In this document: one piece after another, positions 55,989 through 63,949 of the stretch
Position numbering within the stretch: the stretch's first letter is position 1
Layout: each line of letters begins with the position of its first letter
Assembly: GCA_022844135.1 (NCBI GenBank)
Contig: JALHMG010000023.1
Coordinates: 1 to 64,000 of the forward strand
Length of the DNA stretch: 64,000 nt
Source of the DNA: Lysobacterales bacterium
GTDB lineage: Bacteria; Pseudomonadota; Gammaproteobacteria; Xanthomonadales; SZUA-5
Reading direction: 5' to 3'
Made by a program: the position numbers and the translations under genes
The notes under the pieces: generated by a model
What the model saw: the letters and a program-made list of their open reading frames with translations, nothing else
Told to the model about the DNA's origin: nothing
Database searches by the model: none

Positions 55989-58250
55989 TCAGGACGTCGC
56001 CGTTATCGCCAGCGATTGCGGTTCGCCCCGGCGCAGCCACAAGCCGGCGACAAACAGCGCCAGCGCCACCGCACCGATCGAGAAGATGGTGTCGCCGGGC
56101 ACGCGCATCCATACAAGTACCTCGATGATCGGTCGGCCCATGAACTCGGCGGACCGTGCGTACCAGTAGCCGTTCTCGAGCGCAGCGCTGAGTTGCAGCA
56201 AGCCGATCGGCAGCAGCGTCAGCAAGGCCATCAGGCTGAGCCCGATGTTCAACGTCCAGAAACTGGTTTTCAACAGGCCACCGTTCCAAACCGCATCGGG
56301 GCGCAAACCGCGCAGGCAGAACAGCATCAGGCCAATGCCGAGCATGCCGTAGACGCCGAACAACGCAGTGTGGCCATGTAACGGCGTCAGATTCAAGCCT
56401 TGCATGTAATAAAGCGCCAGCGGCGTGTTGATCAGAAAGCCGAACAGGCCGGCGCCGACAAGATTCCAGAACGACACGGCAATAAAAAACATGATCGGCC
56501 AGCGATAACGCGCCATCCACGGCGTCGCCTGGCTGTGCGTATAGGTCTCATAGGCTTCGATGCCGATGAACGCAAGTGGCACCACTTCCAAGGCTGAGAA
56601 CGAGGCGCCGAGCGCCACCACGGCGGTCGTGGTGCCAGTGAAATACAAGTGGTGGAAGGTGCCGAGTACGCCACCGGAGAGAAATACGACAGTCGCGAAC
56701 AGCACCGCGACCGTGGCGCTGCGGGCGCGCACCAGTCCCAGCTTGACGAACAAGAAGCTCATCACGGCGACAGCGAACACTTCGAAAAAGCCTTCGACCC
56801 ACAAGTGCACCACCCACCAGCGCCAGTACTCGACCATCGACAGATGCGTGTGTTCGCCCCACATCAGGCCGGCGCCGTAGAACAAACCGATCGCGACCGT
56901 GGAGAGAAACAACAATCCGACGATCGACGCCATCTCATCGCGTTGGCGCAATGCCGGCCACAGCGCGCGGCCCATCAACACCAGCCACAGCATCAAACCG
57001 ACGAACAGGAAGATTTGCCAGAAGCGACCGATGTCGACGTATTCCCATCCTTGGTGTCCGAACCAGAAGTTGTGCGCCAGCCCAAGCTTTTGCATGACCG
57101 CAAACCACTGTCCGGCAAAGGCGCCGACGACGATGATCAGCAGGCACAGGAACAGGAAGTTCACGCCCAGCCGCTGCAGCGGCGGCTCGTAACCGGAGAT
57201 CGCCGGCGCGATGTAAAGTCCGGTGCCGAGCCACGCGGTGGCGATCCACAGCACCGCCAGTTGCGTGTGCCAACTGCGAGTGAGCGAATACGGCAACACC
57301 TCGGCGAGCTTCAGTCCATACAACTCCTGGCCTTCTACCTGGTAATGCGCGGTGGTGGCGCCGAGCAGGATCTGCACCAGGAACAGCGCCATCACCACCC
57401 AGAAATACTTCTGCGTGGCGGCCATCGACGGCGTGATTTTTAGCGACAGCAAGGGGTCGGTCGCCGGCGGCGCAGGTGCCCGGTCTTTACCGTGGTAGAC
57501 CGCATAGTGCCAGCCCAAAAGGCCTATACCGGCGATCATGAACAGCACGCTGAAGACCGTCCACATGAACTCGCTGGTGGTCGGTTCGTTGCCAGCGAGC
57601 GGCTCGTACGGCCAGTTATTGGTGTACGAGGCCAGACTGTCGGGGCGGGCGGTCGAGGCGGCCCAGGAGGTCCAGAAGAAAAACGCTGCAAGCTGGCGGC
57701 GATGCTCTGGCGTATCGACCGTGGCGTCTTTCATCGCATAGCTTTCCCGCAAACGGGCGGTATCGAGGCCGGTGCCGAACAGGCTGTCGATGTGCGCCGC
57801 AACCGAGGCGATGGCTTGCGCGCGTTGTGCGGAGATCACGATCTCGCCGTTGGCGAACGTGTTGGCGCGCACCAGCGGCCGAAGTTCGGCTTCGAGCTTG
57901 GCGCGGTCGCCAACGCTCAGGTCGGCGTACGCCTTGCCGTGGACTGCCATCGCGCGCAAATCGAGCCACGCGATCAGCTCGCGGTGCAGCCAATCGGCGC
58001 TCCAATCGGGCGCCACCAACGCACCGTGACCCCAGATCGAACCCAACTGATGACCGCCGATGCTTTGCCAAACTACGCGGCCTTGCTCGATATCGGCGCG
58101 CGTGTAAACAACCTCGCCCGACTCGGTGACGACGCGCTCGGGCATCGGCGGCGCCAATCGATGGATTTCGGTGCCCATGAACAGCAGCACACCGAACGAG
58201 CAGACCAAAAGCAAGCCCAGACCCCACCACAACCGCTGCGTGGTTCGCAT
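55989..58250 (-). CDS. norB: Quinol-dependent nitric oxide reductase (qNOR)
   Basis: 753 aa from MRTTQRLWWGLGLLLVCSFG, with GGAGG 8 nt upstream; ATG 58265 lacks such a site. The long N-terminal extension (VWQSIGGHQLGSIWGHGALVAPDWSADWLHRE) fused to the 12-helix haem-copper-like core defines single-subunit qNOR. Core ligands are in SLTRSWHTQLAVLWIATAW, MWGEHTHLSMVEYWRWWVVHLWVEGFFEVFA-type regions (pieces VHLWVEGFFEVFAVAVMSF), GTFHHLYFTGTTTAV and PLHGHTALFGVYGMLGIG. It reduces 2 NO to N2O using quinol. An FNR box lies 65 bp before the start. Confidence 0.96.
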   Translation of the reverse strand: MRTTQRLWWGLGLLLVCSFGVLLFMGTEIHRLAPPMPERVVTESGEVVYTRADIEQGRVVWQSIGGHQLGSIWGHGALVAPDWSADWLHRELIAWLDLRAMAVHGKAYADLSVGDRAKLEAELRPLVRANTFANGEIVISAQRAQAIASVAAHIDSLFGTGLDTARLRESYAMKDATVDTPEHRRQLAAFFFWTSWAASTARPDSLASYTNNWPYEPLAGNEPTTSEFMWTVFSVLFMIAGIGLLGWHYAVYHGKDRAPAPPATDPLLSLKITPSMAATQKYFWVVMALFLVQILLGATTAHYQVEGQELYGLKLAEVLPYSLTRSWHTQLAVLWIATAWLGTGLYIAPAISGYEPPLQRLGVNFLFLCLLIIVVGAFAGQWFAVMQKLGLAHNFWFGHQGWEYVDIGRFWQIFLFVGLMLWLVLMGRALWPALRQRDEMASIVGLLFLSTVAIGLFYGAGLMWGEHTHLSMVEYWRWWVVHLWVEGFFEVFAVAVMSFLFVKLGLVRARSATVAVLFATVVFLSGGVLGTFHHLYFTGTTTAVVALGASFSALEVVPLAFIGIEAYETYTHSQATPWMARYRWPIMFFIAVSFWNLVGAGLFGFLINTPLALYYMQGLNLTPLHGHTALFGVYGMLGIGLMLFCLRGLRPDAVWNGGLLKTSFWTLNIGLSLMALLTLLPIGLLQLSAALENGYWYARSAEFMGRPIIEVLVWMRVPGDTIFSIGAVALALFVAGLWLRRGEPQSLAITATS

Positions 58251-58308
58251 CGCACCATCCTCCATTCACGGACGTTGGCGATGCTCCGGCCGGCGCACTC
58301 GGCGCGCC

Positions 58309-58322
58309 CTGATCTAGATCAG
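58309..58322. promoter_or_regulatory. FNR box upstream of norB
   Basis: CTGAT-CTAG-ATCAG, a fully symmetric 14-bp dyad differing from consensus only at its outermost bases. It overlaps the last codons of the fnr gene (stop at 58314-58316). Confidence 0.8.
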
Positions 58323-59066
58323 ACGCAATACACTCTTGCCTAACTCCTGTAGCCGCGAGCGATCGGCCAGCGCCATCTCGCGGCGCTCCACCGCGATCAG
58401 GCCGTCGTCCTGGAAGCGCCGCAGCACGCGACTGACGGTTTCGGGCGCGAGGCGCAAATAGCTGGCGATATCGGCGCGCGACATGACGAGGTGCAGATGC
58501 GTTGCCGAATAGCCGCGCTGCGCCTGGCGATCGGCCAAATCCAGCAGGAACGCGGCCAGCCGCTCATCGGCGCTGAAATCGCCCGAGAGCATCGAGGCCT
58601 TGCTGATGTCTTTGCTCATCAGCCGGAACAACTGTTGCTGCAGCGCGGGCATGCGCGTGGCAAGGGTTGCGATCGCCGGAAACGAGAAACGACACAACGT
58701 GGTGGTGTCGAGCGTTTGCGCGGCGCATGGGTAGCGGTTGCGATAAACGCCGTTCAATCCCACCAGCTCGCCGGGCAGAAAAAAGCCCAGCACCTGCTCG
58801 CGGCCGTGCTCATCGATGACAAACGTCTTGACTGCGCCGGCGCGCACGGCGTACACCGCTCCGAAGTTATCGCGGTCGCGAAATAGCGCGGTCGCCGCAG
58901 GAAATGGGCCGATATGTTCAATCAGGCAATGCAGCTCCGCCAGCTCCGGTTTCCCGTAACCATGCGGCAGGCACACGCTGGCGAAAGCGCAGGTGGTGCA
59001 AAAGCGTGTGCTGTCGCCGTCGCCGTCGAGTGATAGCGATCTTTCGACCGCCGTCATTACCGTCAT
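58314..59066 (-). CDS. fnr: FNR-type oxygen-sensing regulator
   Basis: 250 aa. N-terminal cysteines in the spacing CX2CX5C (CTTCAFASVC, residues 23-32) plus a later Cys (YPCAAQTL) can hold the 4Fe-4S oxygen-sensing cluster, as in FNR/Anr. A cyclic-nucleotide-type beta roll (FGAVYAVRAGAVKTFVIDEHG, VLGFFLPGELVGLNG) and a C-terminal helix-turn-helix (MSRADIASYLRLAPETVSRVLRRF, with the ExxSR recognition pattern) follow. It is the natural regulator of the five boxes nearby. A second Met at 59057 is an alternative start. Confidence 0.94.
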   Translation of the reverse strand: MTVMTAVERSLSLDGDGDSTRFCTTCAFASVCLPHGYGKPELAELHCLIEHIGPFPAATALFRDRDNFGAVYAVRAGAVKTFVIDEHGREQVLGFFLPGELVGLNGVYRNRYPCAAQTLDTTTLCRFSFPAIATLATRMPALQQQLFRLMSKDISKASMLSGDFSADERLAAFLLDLADRQAQRGYSATHLHLVMSRADIASYLRLAPETVSRVLRRFQDDGLIAVERREMALADRSRLQELGKSVLRLI

Positions 59067-59117: not shown

Positions 59118-60413
59118 CTAAGGCGCCGCCCCAGGCGCCAGCCGCGATGTGGGGAAGACGCAGCGGAAGGTGCTGCCTTTGCCGATGGTGCTTTCGATTT
59201 CGAGTCTCGCGCCGTGGGCGTTGAGCACGTGTTTGACGATGGCCAGACCCAGTCCGGTTCCGCCGCTATCGCGCGAGCGCGAGTTGGAGACCCGATAGAA
59301 GCGTTCGGTCAGTCGCGGCAGGTGCTGCGCGGGAATGCCCTGGCCGGTGTCGATCACGCTAAAGGCCGCACCCTCGCCGTGGGGTTCGTAGTGCAAACGA
59401 ATGCGCCCGCCGGCGGGCGTGTACCGCACGGCGTTGATCACCAGATTCGAGAACGCGCTGTGCAGGTCTTTGCCAGATCCGACGATGTCGAAGCTCGCAT
59501 CGCAGCATAGCTCGATGGTGTGCTGGCCCTGGCTCAGCGCATCGGCGTCGCGTTGGATGCGATCCAGCATCGGACAGATCGCCACCGGCTCATCGCGCGG
59601 CGCCGATTGCGCTTCGAGGCGCGACAGCGTGAGCAAATCCTCGACGATGTGCGACATGCGCCGGCTCTGCTCGCGCATTTCGACGAACAACGGCGCGAAG
59701 TCGTGCAACTCTTCCGGTTCGATCGCCTCCAGATACCCGGCGATGACCGTGAGCGGCGTGCGCAACTCGTGCGATACGTTGGCGACAAAATCGCGCCGCA
59801 CCTGCTCCAGCCGCATCAGATTGCTGACGTCGCGGACGATCAGCATGCGCAAGCCGGGCCGATAGGCGATGAGCCGATACAACAGGCGAACGCGCTCGTC
59901 TTCCGGCGCCGGCTGATCGATCAAGGGCTCGTCGAAGGTGCCTGACGCGATCCAGCGCACGAAGGCCGGTGCGCGCACGAGGTGATCGAGTCGTTGTCCG
60001 ACATCGGCGGGATAGCGCAGCCCCAGCAAACGTTTTGCGGACTTGTTGAACCAGTGGATTTCGTTGCCTTCGTCGATGGCGATAAGACCATCGGGCAAGG
60101 CGCGCGCGGCGTCGCGAAAGGATTCCAGTGCCACCAGCAGGCGCTTGCGCCGCTGGCGGTCCATCTTGCGGCGTCGTTCCAGCGCATCGAACACCGGTTG
60201 CCAGGCACCGAAACCCTCTGGCGCGTGCAGATCGCGCGAACCGAGCCAGCGCTGCAGGCGCAACAACTGGCGCAATTGCAGCAACGCAAACAGCAGCAGA
60301 CCTGCCGCTGCGCCCCATCCGGGTTGACCCACGAGCAAACCGAGGCCAGCTCCTGTGCCGGCCAGCGCCACCATCGCGACCAAGCTGCGCTCGGTAGCGC
60401 GCGGCGTCTTCAC
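59118..60413 (-). CDS. phoR: Phosphate-regulon sensor kinase PhoR
   Basis: 431 aa, starting at a GTG that overlaps the phoB stop (GTGA). It has two N-terminal helices ([33 protein letters not shown]), a PAS domain ([22 protein letters not shown]), the HisKA box [19 protein letters not shown], and an ATPase domain with [27 protein letters not shown] and [13 protein letters not shown]. It autophosphorylates under phosphate limitation and phosphorylates PhoB. Gene order phoB-phoR is standard. Confidence 0.93.
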
Positions 60414-61105
60414 ACCGTGGTGGAAAAGCGATAGCCAGCGCCGCGCACGGTTTGCACGTAGTCCTCCAGACCGAAGGGCTCCATGCTCTTGCGCAAGCGA
60501 CGAATGTGTACGTCCACCGTGCGTTCCTCCACGTACACGCCGCTGCCCCAGACGTTATCCAGCAATTGGCTGCGTGTGTAGACACGCTCTGGATGGGTCA
60601 TGAAGAAGCTCAAGAGCCGATACTCCGTCGGTCCGAGTTGCACCGGTTTGTCGCCAGCGAACACGCGATGGCTCAAGGTATCGAGCGTCAAACCGCCGAG
60701 CGAAATCGTTTGCCCCTCGCCGTGCGGTTGCGTGCGCCGCAATACCGCGCGAATGCGTGCGATCAGTTCGCGCGTCGAGAACGGCTTGACGATGTAGTCG
60801 TCGACGCCGGCGTCGAGGCCGATGACACGATCGTCCTCCTCGCCGCGCGCGGTGAGCATGATGATCGGGATTTCGCGCGTCAGCTCCTCGCGGCGCAGTC
60901 GCCGCGCGAATTCCAGACCGCTGGTGCCGGGCAGCATCCAGTCGAGCAAGATCAAGTCCGGGAGCTTGTCGGCGATCAGATGCTGCGCAATACGCGAGTC
61001 CTCAGCCAGCATCGGCACCAGGCTCGCGCGCTTCAGGGCAAACGCGATCATGTCGCGAATCGCCGACTCGTCTTCTACTACCAACACGCGCTGTTCCACC
61101 GGCAT
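60410..61105 (-). CDS. phoB: Phosphate-regulon response regulator PhoB
   Basis: 231 aa from [19 protein letters not shown], matching the normal length; Met at 61117 is an alternative. The receiver domain has the acidic pair VVEDE, phospho-acceptor Asp in [13 protein letters not shown], and [23 protein letters not shown]. The winged-helix output domain shows [25 protein letters not shown] and [14 protein letters not shown]. It activates phosphate uptake genes. A long inverted repeat precedes it (61139-61176). Confidence 0.95.
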
Positions 61106-61138
61106 CTCCGCTGCCATCAAAACCCGTACATTCAAAGA

Positions 61139-61176
61139 CGAAATTATGACCGGCGTGTGACGATGTCATAATTTCG
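61139..61176. promoter_or_regulatory. 12-bp inverted repeat between aquaporin and phoB
   Basis: CGAAATTATGAC and GTCATAATTTCG form a perfect inverted repeat separated by 14 bases; the right arm overlaps the aquaporin stop codon. GTCATAAT resembles half of a Pho box (CTGTCATA), but Pho boxes are direct repeats, so another regulator or a weak terminator is equally possible. Confidence 0.55.
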
Positions 61177-61822
61177 AGGATTTTCCGACAAACAACAGTG
61201 CGGCGACACTGGTTGCGGCCAGCTGAGCGAGTACAAATCCAGCGACGTCTTGGGGCCGGATCCCGGCGAAGGTATCGGTGAACGCTCGCGCCAAAGTGAC
61301 GGCCGGATTAGCAAACGAAGTGCTGGCGGTGAACCAGTACGCGGCAAAGATGTAGCCTGCGACGAGCTGTGGAATCTGCGTCGCAGCGTGGCGGCGGGCG
61401 ACGGCGATGGTCGCCAGCAATCCCGCCGTTGCGATGCACTCGCTCAACCACTGGGGCCCGCCGGTTCGCACCTGGGTGCCGATTTGCAGCAGTGTCTGGT
61501 CGAACATTGCGTGGGCGAGCAGCACGCCCGCTATCGCGCCCAGGACTTGCGCTATCACGTAACCCGTCGCCTGCAACACTCCGAGCTCTCGGCCGGCGAG
61601 CATCAACAAGGTTACGCACGGATTGAAGTGCGCGCCGCTGATCGGGCCTATGAGCGTTATCAGCACATAGAGCCCCGCAGCAGTGGCCGCAGCATTTGCC
61701 AGCAACGCGAGAGCCGGTAAACCGGGTGCGAGCATCTCACCCATGATCCCGGAGCCAACCACCACCGCCAGCAGCGCCATCGTGCCCAAAGCTTCGGCCA
61801 GCAATGCCTCAGGCCCGCGCAC
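61166..61822 (-). CDS. aqpS: Aquaglyceroporin of the arsenic operon
   Basis: About 218 aa from the GTG at 61822, overlapping the upstream gene by 14 bp; no ATG fits. It has the six-helix MIP fold with GAHFNPCVTLLML (first box NPC instead of NPA) and FANPAVTLARAFTDTFAGI (second box). AqpS proteins in ars operons let arsenite leave the cell after ArsC reduction, taking the place of an ArsB/Acr3 pump, and none is seen here. The name aqpS rests on context. Confidence 0.87.
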   Translation of the reverse strand: MRGPEALLAEALGTMALLAVVVGSGIMGEMLAPGLPALALLANAAATAAGLYVLITLIGPISGAHFNPCVTLLMLAGRELGVLQATGYVIAQVLGAIAGVLLAHAMFDQTLLQIGTQVRTGGPQWLSECIATAGLLATIAVARRHAATQIPQLVAGYIFAAYWFTASTSFANPAVTLARAFTDTFAGIRPQDVAGFVLAQLAATSVAALLFVGKSSKL

Positions 61823-62663
61823 AACACACTCCACAGGCAAGCAGCTGCCGCCAGTAGCCGGCCCGTGCCGGGTACTTGGCGCGGCTGCGAGCGAACAAGC
61901 CGATGTCGACGACGTGCCCCGGCCCACGCCAGGTGCCGAACACCTGATCCCAGATCGCCAGTGCATTGCCGTAATTCGCGTGGCCCACATGCGCGTCGGC
62001 CGCGTGATGCCAGCGATGCAGCTCATTGCTGCTGAAAACATGGTTCCAGAAGCCGTTGTGCAGATCGGCGTTGGCGTGCTGCAGCATCTGCACGGGCTGG
62101 GTCAGCGCGAGATAGCCAAACACGGCCTCGGGGGAAGCTCCCAGATACAGCGGCGGCAGCACGGCAAGACCGTTGATGAGGTAGTTCAGCGGATGGACCC
62201 GAAACCCGTTGACGGCGTTGAGCTTCTCGGGGCTATGGTGCATCGCGTGCAAGCACCACAGCGGCGCGAACTGGTGGTGCGCGCGGTGCGACAGGTATTT
62301 GCCGAGTTCGATCAGCAAGCTGACGACGAGGATTTCCGCGAACAACGGCCAGCTCGCCAGCGTTACTGCCGATGGATACAGCGCAACGGCCAGGATCGGC
62401 AGGGTCGACTTCAACAGCGGGTCGATTGCGAGGAGCACCACGCCGGCACTGCTCGCATCGTCGATCAGCTCGCGCCGGTCGGCGTGCCAATCGTCCCGAT
62501 AGGGCCAAAGACGCTCAGCCAGTATCGCCAAGCCGAGTGCGATCAGCGTACCGGCGAGCACCGCGGCAGCCAATGGAACGTCGGCCGCAAGCGCCAGGGC
62601 GAACAACAACAGGCTTTGCGCAACCGCAATCGGCAGCAGGCGGTTTCGTAGATAGGCTTTCAT
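61809..62663 (-). CDS. Fatty acid hydroxylase/sterol desaturase-type protein inside the ars operon
   Basis: 284 aa. Several membrane helices surround the His-rich diiron motifs KYLSHRAHHQF, HAMHHSPEKLNAVNG and ELHRWHHAADAHVGHANYGN, the full set for an active non-haem diiron hydroxylase. The ATG overlaps the arsC stop (ATGA, 62660-62663) and its end overlaps aqpS, so it is transcribed and translated with the arsenic genes. No arsenic role is known for this family; membrane lipid remodelling or arsenolipid chemistry is speculation. Confidence 0.88.
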   Translation of the reverse strand: MKAYLRNRLLPIAVAQSLLLFALALAADVPLAAAVLAGTLIALGLAILAERLWPYRDDWHADRRELIDDASSAGVVLLAIDPLLKSTLPILAVALYPSAVTLASWPLFAEILVVSLLIELGKYLSHRAHHQFAPLWCLHAMHHSPEKLNAVNGFRVHPLNYLINGLAVLPPLYLGASPEAVFGYLALTQPVQMLQHANADLHNGFWNHVFSSNELHRWHHAADAHVGHANYGNALAIWDQVFGTWRGPGHVVDIGLFARSRAKYPARAGYWRQLLACGVCCARA

Positions 62664-63046
62664 GGTAGTCGTTCCAACAAGGCGCGCACACGCCGCGCTA
62701 TGTCGTCGCGGATAACGCGGTATTCCTCGTCGCCCAGGTGTTTGGGGTCGCCCAGCGCCCAATCCTCGCGAATCCTCGCGGGCACCCACGGACAGCTGTC
62801 GCCGCAACCCATCGTAATCACCGCATCGAATTCGCCCGCGATCTCGTCGAGCGACTTTGAGCGCTGCGCCGAAAGATCGATGCCCAGCTCGGCCATGAAG
62901 CGCAGCGCTTTGGGATTGATGACGCCCGATGGCCGCGAGCCGGCGCTCAAGCTCTCGACGCCCGCACCGCCGAAATGCCGCGCGAATCCTTCGGCCATCT
63001 GGCTGCGATTGGCGTTTTCGACGCACACAAAGAGCACGCGCTTCAT
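62660..63046 (-). CDS. arsC: Arsenate reductase, thioredoxin-coupled type
   Basis: 128 aa of the low-molecular-weight phosphatase fold: P-loop CVENANRSQ (CX5R), AGSRPSGVINPKALRFM, and the second redox cysteine region ITMGCGDSCPWVPA. It reduces arsenate to arsenite for export. The ATG overlaps the arsI stop (63043-63046) and its own stop overlaps the next gene, showing tight coupling. Confidence 0.95.
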   Translation of the reverse strand: MKRVLFVCVENANRSQMAEGFARHFGGAGVESLSAGSRPSGVINPKALRFMAELGIDLSAQRSKSLDEIAGEFDAVITMGCGDSCPWVPARIREDWALGDPKHLGDEEYRVIRDDIARRVRALLERLP

Positions 63047-63612
63047 GCCACGCAACCGCACTGACGGTCGGTTGCGGCGTCCGCGCTCGGCGCTGCCGCA
63101 GCGCCCGATACGCAGGCTGACGCCGCGCATTGCTCGCCAGTCGCTCGTAACTGCTCGGGCGACAAGTGTTCGAGCACCGCGAACACTTCCCACTCGTTGC
63201 CGTCTGGATCGGCGAGCCAGAATTTGTCCTGTCGCGCATAACAGCAGCTGACGGCCATCTCATCGCGTGGCGCCATGCCCACAGCCAACGCGCGCTCGCG
63301 CAATCGCAATACCGCGGCACTGTCTGCAACCTGCAGACCCAGGTGCGATAGCGAACCGCCCGGCTGCGCATCGGCCATTTCGTTGAGCACGAAGTTCAGA
63401 GGCGGATCGTTGAGATCGAATTTCGCATAGCCAGTGCGCACGCGGCGGCTGTCTGCGCCGCTATCGTCCAGCAGCAGCGAATGCGTTTCCGTCCGGTCGT
63501 GATAGTGCTTGACCGGATCGACGCCGAATAGCGCACGATAGAAGTCGACGCTGGCATCGATGTTGCGGACATTCAGCGACAGGTGCGGTTTGAATCCAGT
63601 CACGGCGGACAT
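63043..63612 (-). CDS. arsI: ArsI-type vicinal oxygen chelate protein
   Basis: 189 aa from MSAVTGFKPHLSLNVRNIDAS. Two VOC modules with metal ligands (HLSLNV, LSHLGLQV, EWEVFAV). The adjacent cysteines in VSCCYARQDKFWLADPDGNEWE are those that bind trivalent organoarsenicals in ArsI C-As lyases. A Cys-containing tail (CAASACVSG, RQCGCVA) is additional. ArsI cleaves methylarsenite to arsenite with oxygen. The CadI name is also used for relatives. Confidence 0.9.
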   Translation of the reverse strand: MSAVTGFKPHLSLNVRNIDASVDFYRALFGVDPVKHYHDRTETHSLLLDDSGADSRRVRTGYAKFDLNDPPLNFVLNEMADAQPGGSLSHLGLQVADSAAVLRLRERALAVGMAPRDEMAVSCCYARQDKFWLADPDGNEWEVFAVLEHLSPEQLRATGEQCAASACVSGAAAAPSADAATDRQCGCVA

Positions 63613-63622
63613 AGCGGCTTCC

Positions 63623-63949
63623 TCAGCAAGGCTTTCCGGGCGCACAGGTCGGGGCAACCGCTGCGGCGCCCGCGCAGCAGTTCTCTGTCAGATAACTCAG
63701 CAATGCGTTCATGCGTGTGTAGTCGGCACGCACGCGAATCACGCGCCCTTCGCGCGTATCGAGCGCCAGCCCGGCGCCGCGCAATACGTTCAGATGCGCA
63801 GTCAGCGTTGCCGGTGGAAGGTCGAGCTTCTCACGCAATTCGCCGACCGACAGGCCATCAGGGCCGGCCTGGATCAAGGCACGAAATGCCGCGAGACGGC
63901 TGTCATGAGCGAGCGCGCGAAGTGCGTTGAGTGCGGTGATGGTGTCCAT
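63623..63949 (-). CDS. arsR: Arsenical-responsive repressor ArsR
   Basis: 108 aa winged helix: LAHDSRLAAFRALIQAGPDGLSVGELREKLDLPPATLTAHLNVLRGAGL. It lacks the classical N-terminal ELCVCDL site; cysteines cluster at the C-terminus (ENCCAGAAAVAPTCAPGKPC), as in ArsR types that sense arsenic there. First gene of the operon. A palindrome covers its start codon. Confidence 0.92.
   Translation of the reverse strand: MDTITALNALRALAHDSRLAAFRALIQAGPDGLSVGELREKLDLPPATLTAHLNVLRGAGLALDTREGRVIRVRADYTRMNALLSYLTENCCAGAAAVAPTCAPGKPC

Follow-up and report, generated by a model that had tools for sequence, protein, structure and literature searches.

A hydroxylase gene co-located with arsenic defense genes suggests membrane-lipid change as part of bacterial arsenic resistance

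Bacterial arsenic resistance is usually described in terms of reduction, methylation, cleavage of C–As bonds, conjugation, and export. In the AqpS-type ars operon of Sinorhizobium meliloti, the gene order is arsR-aqpS-arsC-arsH. The role of AqpS has been described in a published survey that covered 685 ars operons; in it, none of the 18 operons with a MIP gene encoded a second type of transporter (PMC4435449). OlsE has been characterized as a head-group hydroxylase of ornithine lipids (PMC3972451). An FA_hydroxylase-family gene also occurs beside cadR and the gene for a metal P-type ATPase in the Pb/Cd cluster of pA81 and pENH91. Judging by its layout, we take this to be the pbt cluster of Achromobacter xylosoxidans A8, and its hydroxylase to be PbtY. 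The words hydroxylase and desaturase are absent from the main text of two ars-gene surveys (PMC4435449, PMC6205960), and we found nothing in the open-licence literature that describes such a hydroxylase in an ars operon, in agreement with the original prediction that no such enzyme is known in arsenic detoxification.

The window analyzed here is a stretch of 64,000 nucleotides from a Lysobacterales bacterium. Reading the minus strand in full from 63949 to 61166 gave a five-gene operon, arsR-arsI-arsC-hydroxylase-aquaglyceroporin (Table 1). All five genes are located as originally claimed and their families hold by profile, and the hydroxylase gene is embedded in an arsenic operon. The genes had also been described as joined by ATGA or overlapping ends. 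This is the case for arsI/arsC and arsC/hydroxylase, which overlap by ATGA, and for the hydroxylase and the aquaglyceroporin, whose start (GTG at 61834, 61825, or 61822) lies inside the hydroxylase 3′ end, but not for arsR and arsI, which are separated by a 10-bp gap with no ATGA. The tail of ArsI (63043–63130) is rich in Cys and ends in DRQCGCVA, and Cys residues are likewise abundant in the ArsR and hydroxylase tails. Directly downstream of the operon and on the same strand, the window carries phoB and phoR equivalogs (59118–61135), an arrangement also found in a congener (G004). An inverted repeat with 12-bp arms and, by eye, Pho-box-like direct repeats lie between the channel gene and phoB (61130–61185), with a similar arrangement in the congener; they are probably a PhoB autoregulatory site. 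Further along (55989–59066), a gene resembling single-subunit nitric oxide reductase and an FNR/DNR-like regulator were recognized by eye.

Table 1. Features of the ars operon and of related hydroxylase loci (window positions unless a locus is named)
Feature	Position	Strand	Details
arsR	63623..63949	minus	108 aa; Cys 91, 92, 102, 108; NF033788 55.2 bits vs cut-off 55
arsI, C–As lyase family	63043..63612	minus	189 aa; NF041414 135.6 bits vs cut-off 116
arsC, arsenate reductase, LMWPc fold	62660..63046	minus	128 aa; PF01451; best TIGR02689 99 bits, below cut-off 157.6
FA_hydroxylase-family membrane hydroxylase (P0001)	61809..62663	minus	284 aa; PF04116 86.2 bits vs gathering score 31
Hydroxylase C-terminal CxxCC (C277, C280, C281)	61821..61835	minus	CC pair in final 30 residues
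MIP channel, aquaglyceroporin-like	61166..61834	minus	PF00230 76 bits vs cut-off 25; NPC and NPA boxes
Inverted repeat across arsR start codon	63945..63974	minus	10-bp arms, 10-bp spacer; shuffle test
CDF-hydroxylase-DUF411 hydroxylases	L073 7869-8780; L075 7869-8783		
Metal/RND-linked plasmid loci			L020-L024, L072, L073, L075, L082, L083, L103-L106

Like the AqpS-type operon, this locus combines arsR and arsC with a MIP channel that substitutes for ArsB or Acr3; it differs from that operon in the added hydroxylase and arsI and in the first box of the channel. That this box reads NPC was confirmed in the sequence, and the second box is NPA. The channel is 67% identical to that of the congener, which also has NPC, and 69% identical to that of a third ars locus, in a genome from another family of the same order (G340). 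Because the G340 channel carries NPA as its first box, we regard NPC as a local variant. The operon encodes no ArsB or Acr3, and an Acr3 profile exceeded its cut-off in none of the five genomes searched. Hence, the pump noted as missing is truly absent from the operon, but the absence is no oddity, since it is shared by the 18 MIP operons in the survey cited previously (PMC4435449), and we dismissed it as an anomaly.

The only Pfam match of the hydroxylase, P0001, is FA_hydroxylase (PF04116), and its only NCBIfam match is OlsE (NF052566), with 132.3 bits against a cut-off of 475. The claim that all His motifs are kept was borne out: the nine core His residues (126, 130, 139, 142, 143, 196, 216, 219, and 220) are conserved in every one of the 51 relatives aligned. 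By these motifs, P0001 is predicted to be a His-box (diiron-type) integral membrane enzyme. Of 62 distinct hydroxylases, five have a CC pair among their final 30 residues, and each of the five belongs to the clade of P0001 defined later; the pair is absent from clade member G624. As a guess, As(III) may be sensed or bound by the enzyme directly through this clade-only Cys pair. Sequence searches of the PDB with P0001 and with an alignment (A3) gave no matches at E 1, and an AlphaFold2 model built from seven sequences was poor (pLDDT 55.4) and had no Foldseek match at E 0.001; for these reasons, we draw no structural claim.

Phylogenetic analysis used a second tree of 51 rows, from which nine long-branched or distant sequences were left out (L054, L071, L074, L076, L077, L080, L081, L084, and L092); the fragment L091 was excluded from use. 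In this tree, P0001 belongs to a clade of six rows with support 100/100, comprising the proteins of its own genome (G000), G004, G340, G624, G539, and a phage. The own genome encodes four further relatives of the hydroxylase. An order-level search matched 3 of 398 genomes at E 1e-40, namely the own genome, G004, and G340, and a class sample matched 9 of 369 at E 1e-30, with G000, G624, and G539 as the clade members among them. No further member was found among relatives of G340 (2 of 148 matched, G340 and G004 themselves), in a phylum sample (2 of 398 at E 1e-34, the own genome and G1093, which lies outside the clade), among relatives of G624 (1 of 114), or in the order of G539 (1 of 109). A single-sequence scan of genome contigs returned one clade member, L013, which is the G004 locus of a Lysobacterales MAG; phage records gave two distant matches, and additional IMG/VR scans added nothing. 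In total, the clade was found in five species across 1,562 genomes, counted over overlapping samples, and in one phage lineage. Because the clade is this rare, most ars operons must do without the hydroxylase.

Three clade members lie in ars loci: those of the own genome, G004, and G340. In G004, the only congener searched, the order is arsR-arsC-hydroxylase-aquaporin, with no arsI and a hydroxylase 66% identical to P0001. In G340, arsR-arsC-arsC-aquaporin diverges from MarR-arsN1-flavin monooxygenase-hydroxylase, and the GTG start of the hydroxylase gene overlaps the TGA stop of the flavin monooxygenase gene that lies behind arsN1 (GTGA); by profile, ArsN1 scores 235 against a cut-off of 170, and the flavin enzyme scores 61, below the ArsO cut-off of 425. 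The phage member, found by an IMG/VR scan, is 40% identical to P0001 and forms a cassette in which arsR (L107, 561-887) overlaps the hydroxylase gene (884-1753) by ATGA. The cassette is present on two contigs (L107 and L108; 98.8% identical over 4,196 bp), both classed as viral by IMG/VR. It lies within a phage tail module: neighboring genes encode a tail terminator, a minor tail protein, a tape measure protein, and head decoration, and others belong to further phage families. By eye, a transposase-like gene of the IS110 type lies beside the cassette. In all four ArsR-linked loci, the hydroxylase start overlaps the stop of the preceding gene, and the partners differ.

The remaining two members, in G624 and G539, are encoded directly behind a MerR-type gene. 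The conserved promoter read between the two genes has TTGACT and TTAGTC or TTATAG, 19 bp apart, which is the spacing typical of MerR-activated promoters. Both MerR proteins are similar to CueR, CadR, and ZntR, with scores under the respective cut-offs, and no metal genes lie near either hydroxylase other than the MerR regulator and, by eye, a Mg-transporter-like gene in L039. A gene for ArsR, MerR, or ArsC is found no more than 5 kb from the hydroxylase in 6 of 6 clade loci versus 1 of 25 other chromosomal relatives (Fisher 9.5e-6, a value to be read knowing that the rows are related and that some seeds of the search models came from the same loci). The 25 control loci include near pairs (e.g., L016/L017 and L051/L055) and loci with short flanks (L016, L043, L046, and L047), and L041, with two hydroxylases, was counted as one locus. 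The sole control with a regulator, L050, has the order MerR-hydroxylase/DUF3703 fusion-CDF and belongs to the metal-linked clade described later. Thus, the clade has a recurring tie to ArsR or MerR regulators, and the outcome feared at the outset, an association seen in this genome only with orthologs in lipid or carotenoid loci, was absent from the loci surveyed. The hydroxylase genuinely belongs to the arsenic operon and, on our reading, to the arsenic regulon.

The inverted repeat at the arsR start was matched in arm length by none of 500 shuffles and is likely the ArsR operator. Its core, TTCYGGAAT..TCGAA..ATG, was also found by eye upstream of arsR in G004 and G340. The best repeat at arsR of G004 has 8 bp and was matched by 13 of 500 shuffles, and a search at G340 arsR gave no repeat of at least 7 bp. 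The phage arsR is preceded by an inverted repeat with 11-bp arms (0 of 500 shuffles). C91 and C92 are invariant in the four ArsR proteins of the ArsR-linked loci.

A related clade of 14 rows (support 100/97) contains 10 metal-linked rows, from Cd, Pb, Zn, and Cu resistance loci. It was sister to the P0001 clade in one tree (91/80), and the next tree gave no resolution. Thirty plasmid contexts were chosen, of which H1 carried no annotation and H25 repeated H24, leaving 28; annotated metal-resistance or RND efflux genes lie within 5 kb of the hydroxylase in 14 of these (Table 1), the RND genes of L023 carrying no metal-pump label. Five of the 14 came from hand-picked best matches (for H17, the DUF3703 label was part of the reason), four were the best by genus, and five came from a spread listing with one annotated row per genus. 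In that listing, 5 of 19 plasmid relatives had metal genes within 5 kb, and one more lay near a cation P-type ATPase of unspecified metal. A second metal-linked branch consists of a CDF-hydroxylase-DUF411 operon on Roseobacter-group plasmids of Sulfitobacter and Phaeobacter. Hydroxylase-DUF3703 fusions occur at the metal-efflux loci L021 (5848-7032) and L050 (7714-8907), and free-standing DUF3703 near the hydroxylases of L020, L103, and L106. The metal link is therefore frequent within one related clade and reappears in another branch but is not general to the superfamily. P0001 resembles the hydroxylase of pA81 and pENH91 in that an FA_hydroxylase-family gene sits within a metal-resistance cluster; it belongs, however, to another clade, the Pb/Cd cluster has no arsenic genes, and the DUF3703 domain fused in two metal-clade members is lacking in P0001.

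Could P0001 be an ordinary OlsE of the phosphate-starvation response, found beside ars genes since the locus adjoins phoBR? OlsE is its best curated model, and P0001 shares with the OlsE proteins of Rhizobium and Agrobacterium the superfamily, the nine-His core, a similar length, and approximately 32% identity to one that scores above the NF052566 cut-off. PhoB and PhoR are encoded directly downstream in the own genome and the congener, and in G340, the genes next after the hydroxylase and the channel are alkaline-phosphatase-like and PhoU-like, respectively. The score of P0001, however, is far below the cut-off, whereas true OlsE (544 bits) and a paralog from the own genome (G000:C3, 327 bits) form a separate clade (100/99). 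The paralog is the better candidate for the housekeeping OlsE-like enzyme. P0001 further differs from OlsE in its predicted ArsR/MerR control and C-terminal CC, and no pho genes were seen by eye at the phage locus or the two MerR loci. On score, tree, and the phage and MerR contexts, we rejected a pho-regulon OlsE as a very unlikely identity of P0001.

Another possibility is that the hydroxylase oxidizes lipophilic organoarsenicals (methyl or aryl) or arsenolipids for ArsI or the channel. Such a role would suit the presence of arsI in the same operon, the coupling of the G340 gene to an arsN1-flavin monooxygenase pair, and the clade-specific CC, a plausible As(III) ligand. Yet the congener operon has no arsI, the phage cassette has arsR only, and relatives with the same His core lie beside Cd, Pb, Zn, and Cu pumps, where such an organic substrate would not be expected; we regard it as unlikely. 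Related hydroxylases in Cd/Pb/Cu clusters also led us to drop an arsenolipid-specific enzyme as the first choice. Of the two targets suggested originally, membranes or arsenolipids, the membrane stands, as a general substrate favored by those relatives, and nothing speaks for the arsenolipid. The gene could also be a hitch-hiking lipid gene in a metal-resistance island, with no role in resistance, given that the clade is rare and patchy and that islands collect passengers. Against this speak the four ArsR-linked loci with differing partners and a metalloregulator always near, and the overlap of the hydroxylase start with the preceding stop in each of them, so that a passenger seems a rather weak candidate.

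The best reading, to which we give an even chance, is an ArsR-controlled membrane-lipid hydroxylase that toughens the envelope under arsenic. Arsenite from ArsC or ArsI would bind ArsR and open the operon, and the hydroxylase would then be produced together with the detoxification enzymes. Most likely, the enzyme would hydroxylate a membrane lipid, acting on an acyl chain or on an aminolipid (ornithine lipid, for example). The extra hydroxyls could form hydrogen bonds and tighten packing, making an envelope hit by a thiophilic toxicant less permeable or allowing its repair. The aquaglyceroporin would be the exit for arsenite, and with a tighter bilayer beside this open channel, the channel would stay the main route. 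Hydroxylated ornithine lipids have been tied to tolerance of heat and pH stress, and stronger hydrogen bonds together with reduced fluidity and permeability have been suggested (PMC3972451). An OlsB-type acyltransferase domain (PF13444) was found in six of seven genomes asked (82.5 bits in G000). Based on the ornithine-lipid stress data and the occurrence of this domain, the best fit is a lipid substrate and a role in barrier function or repair. G624 (88% complete) gave no PF13444 match, though it has the hydroxylase; therefore, the substrate may be something other than ornithine lipid. A general membrane substrate, independent of the toxicant, is favored because relatives occur at loci for Cd, Pb, Zn, and Cu.

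A broader idea, which we hold to be doubtful, is that membrane-lipid hydroxylation is an unrecognized and mobile form of resistance to metals and metalloids, with ArsR-hydroxylase and MerR-hydroxylase pairs as minimal cassettes, even phage-borne, and that the Cys pair of the arsenic branch binds As(III) and sets activity. That a hydroxylase gene shares its switch with arsenic defense genes suggests that membrane-lipid change is part of arsenic resistance. A co-regulated lipid hydroxylase would make the membrane itself a target of the arsenic response, and the occurrence of the same enzyme family in Cd, Pb, Zn, and Cu clusters makes this a question common to many metals.
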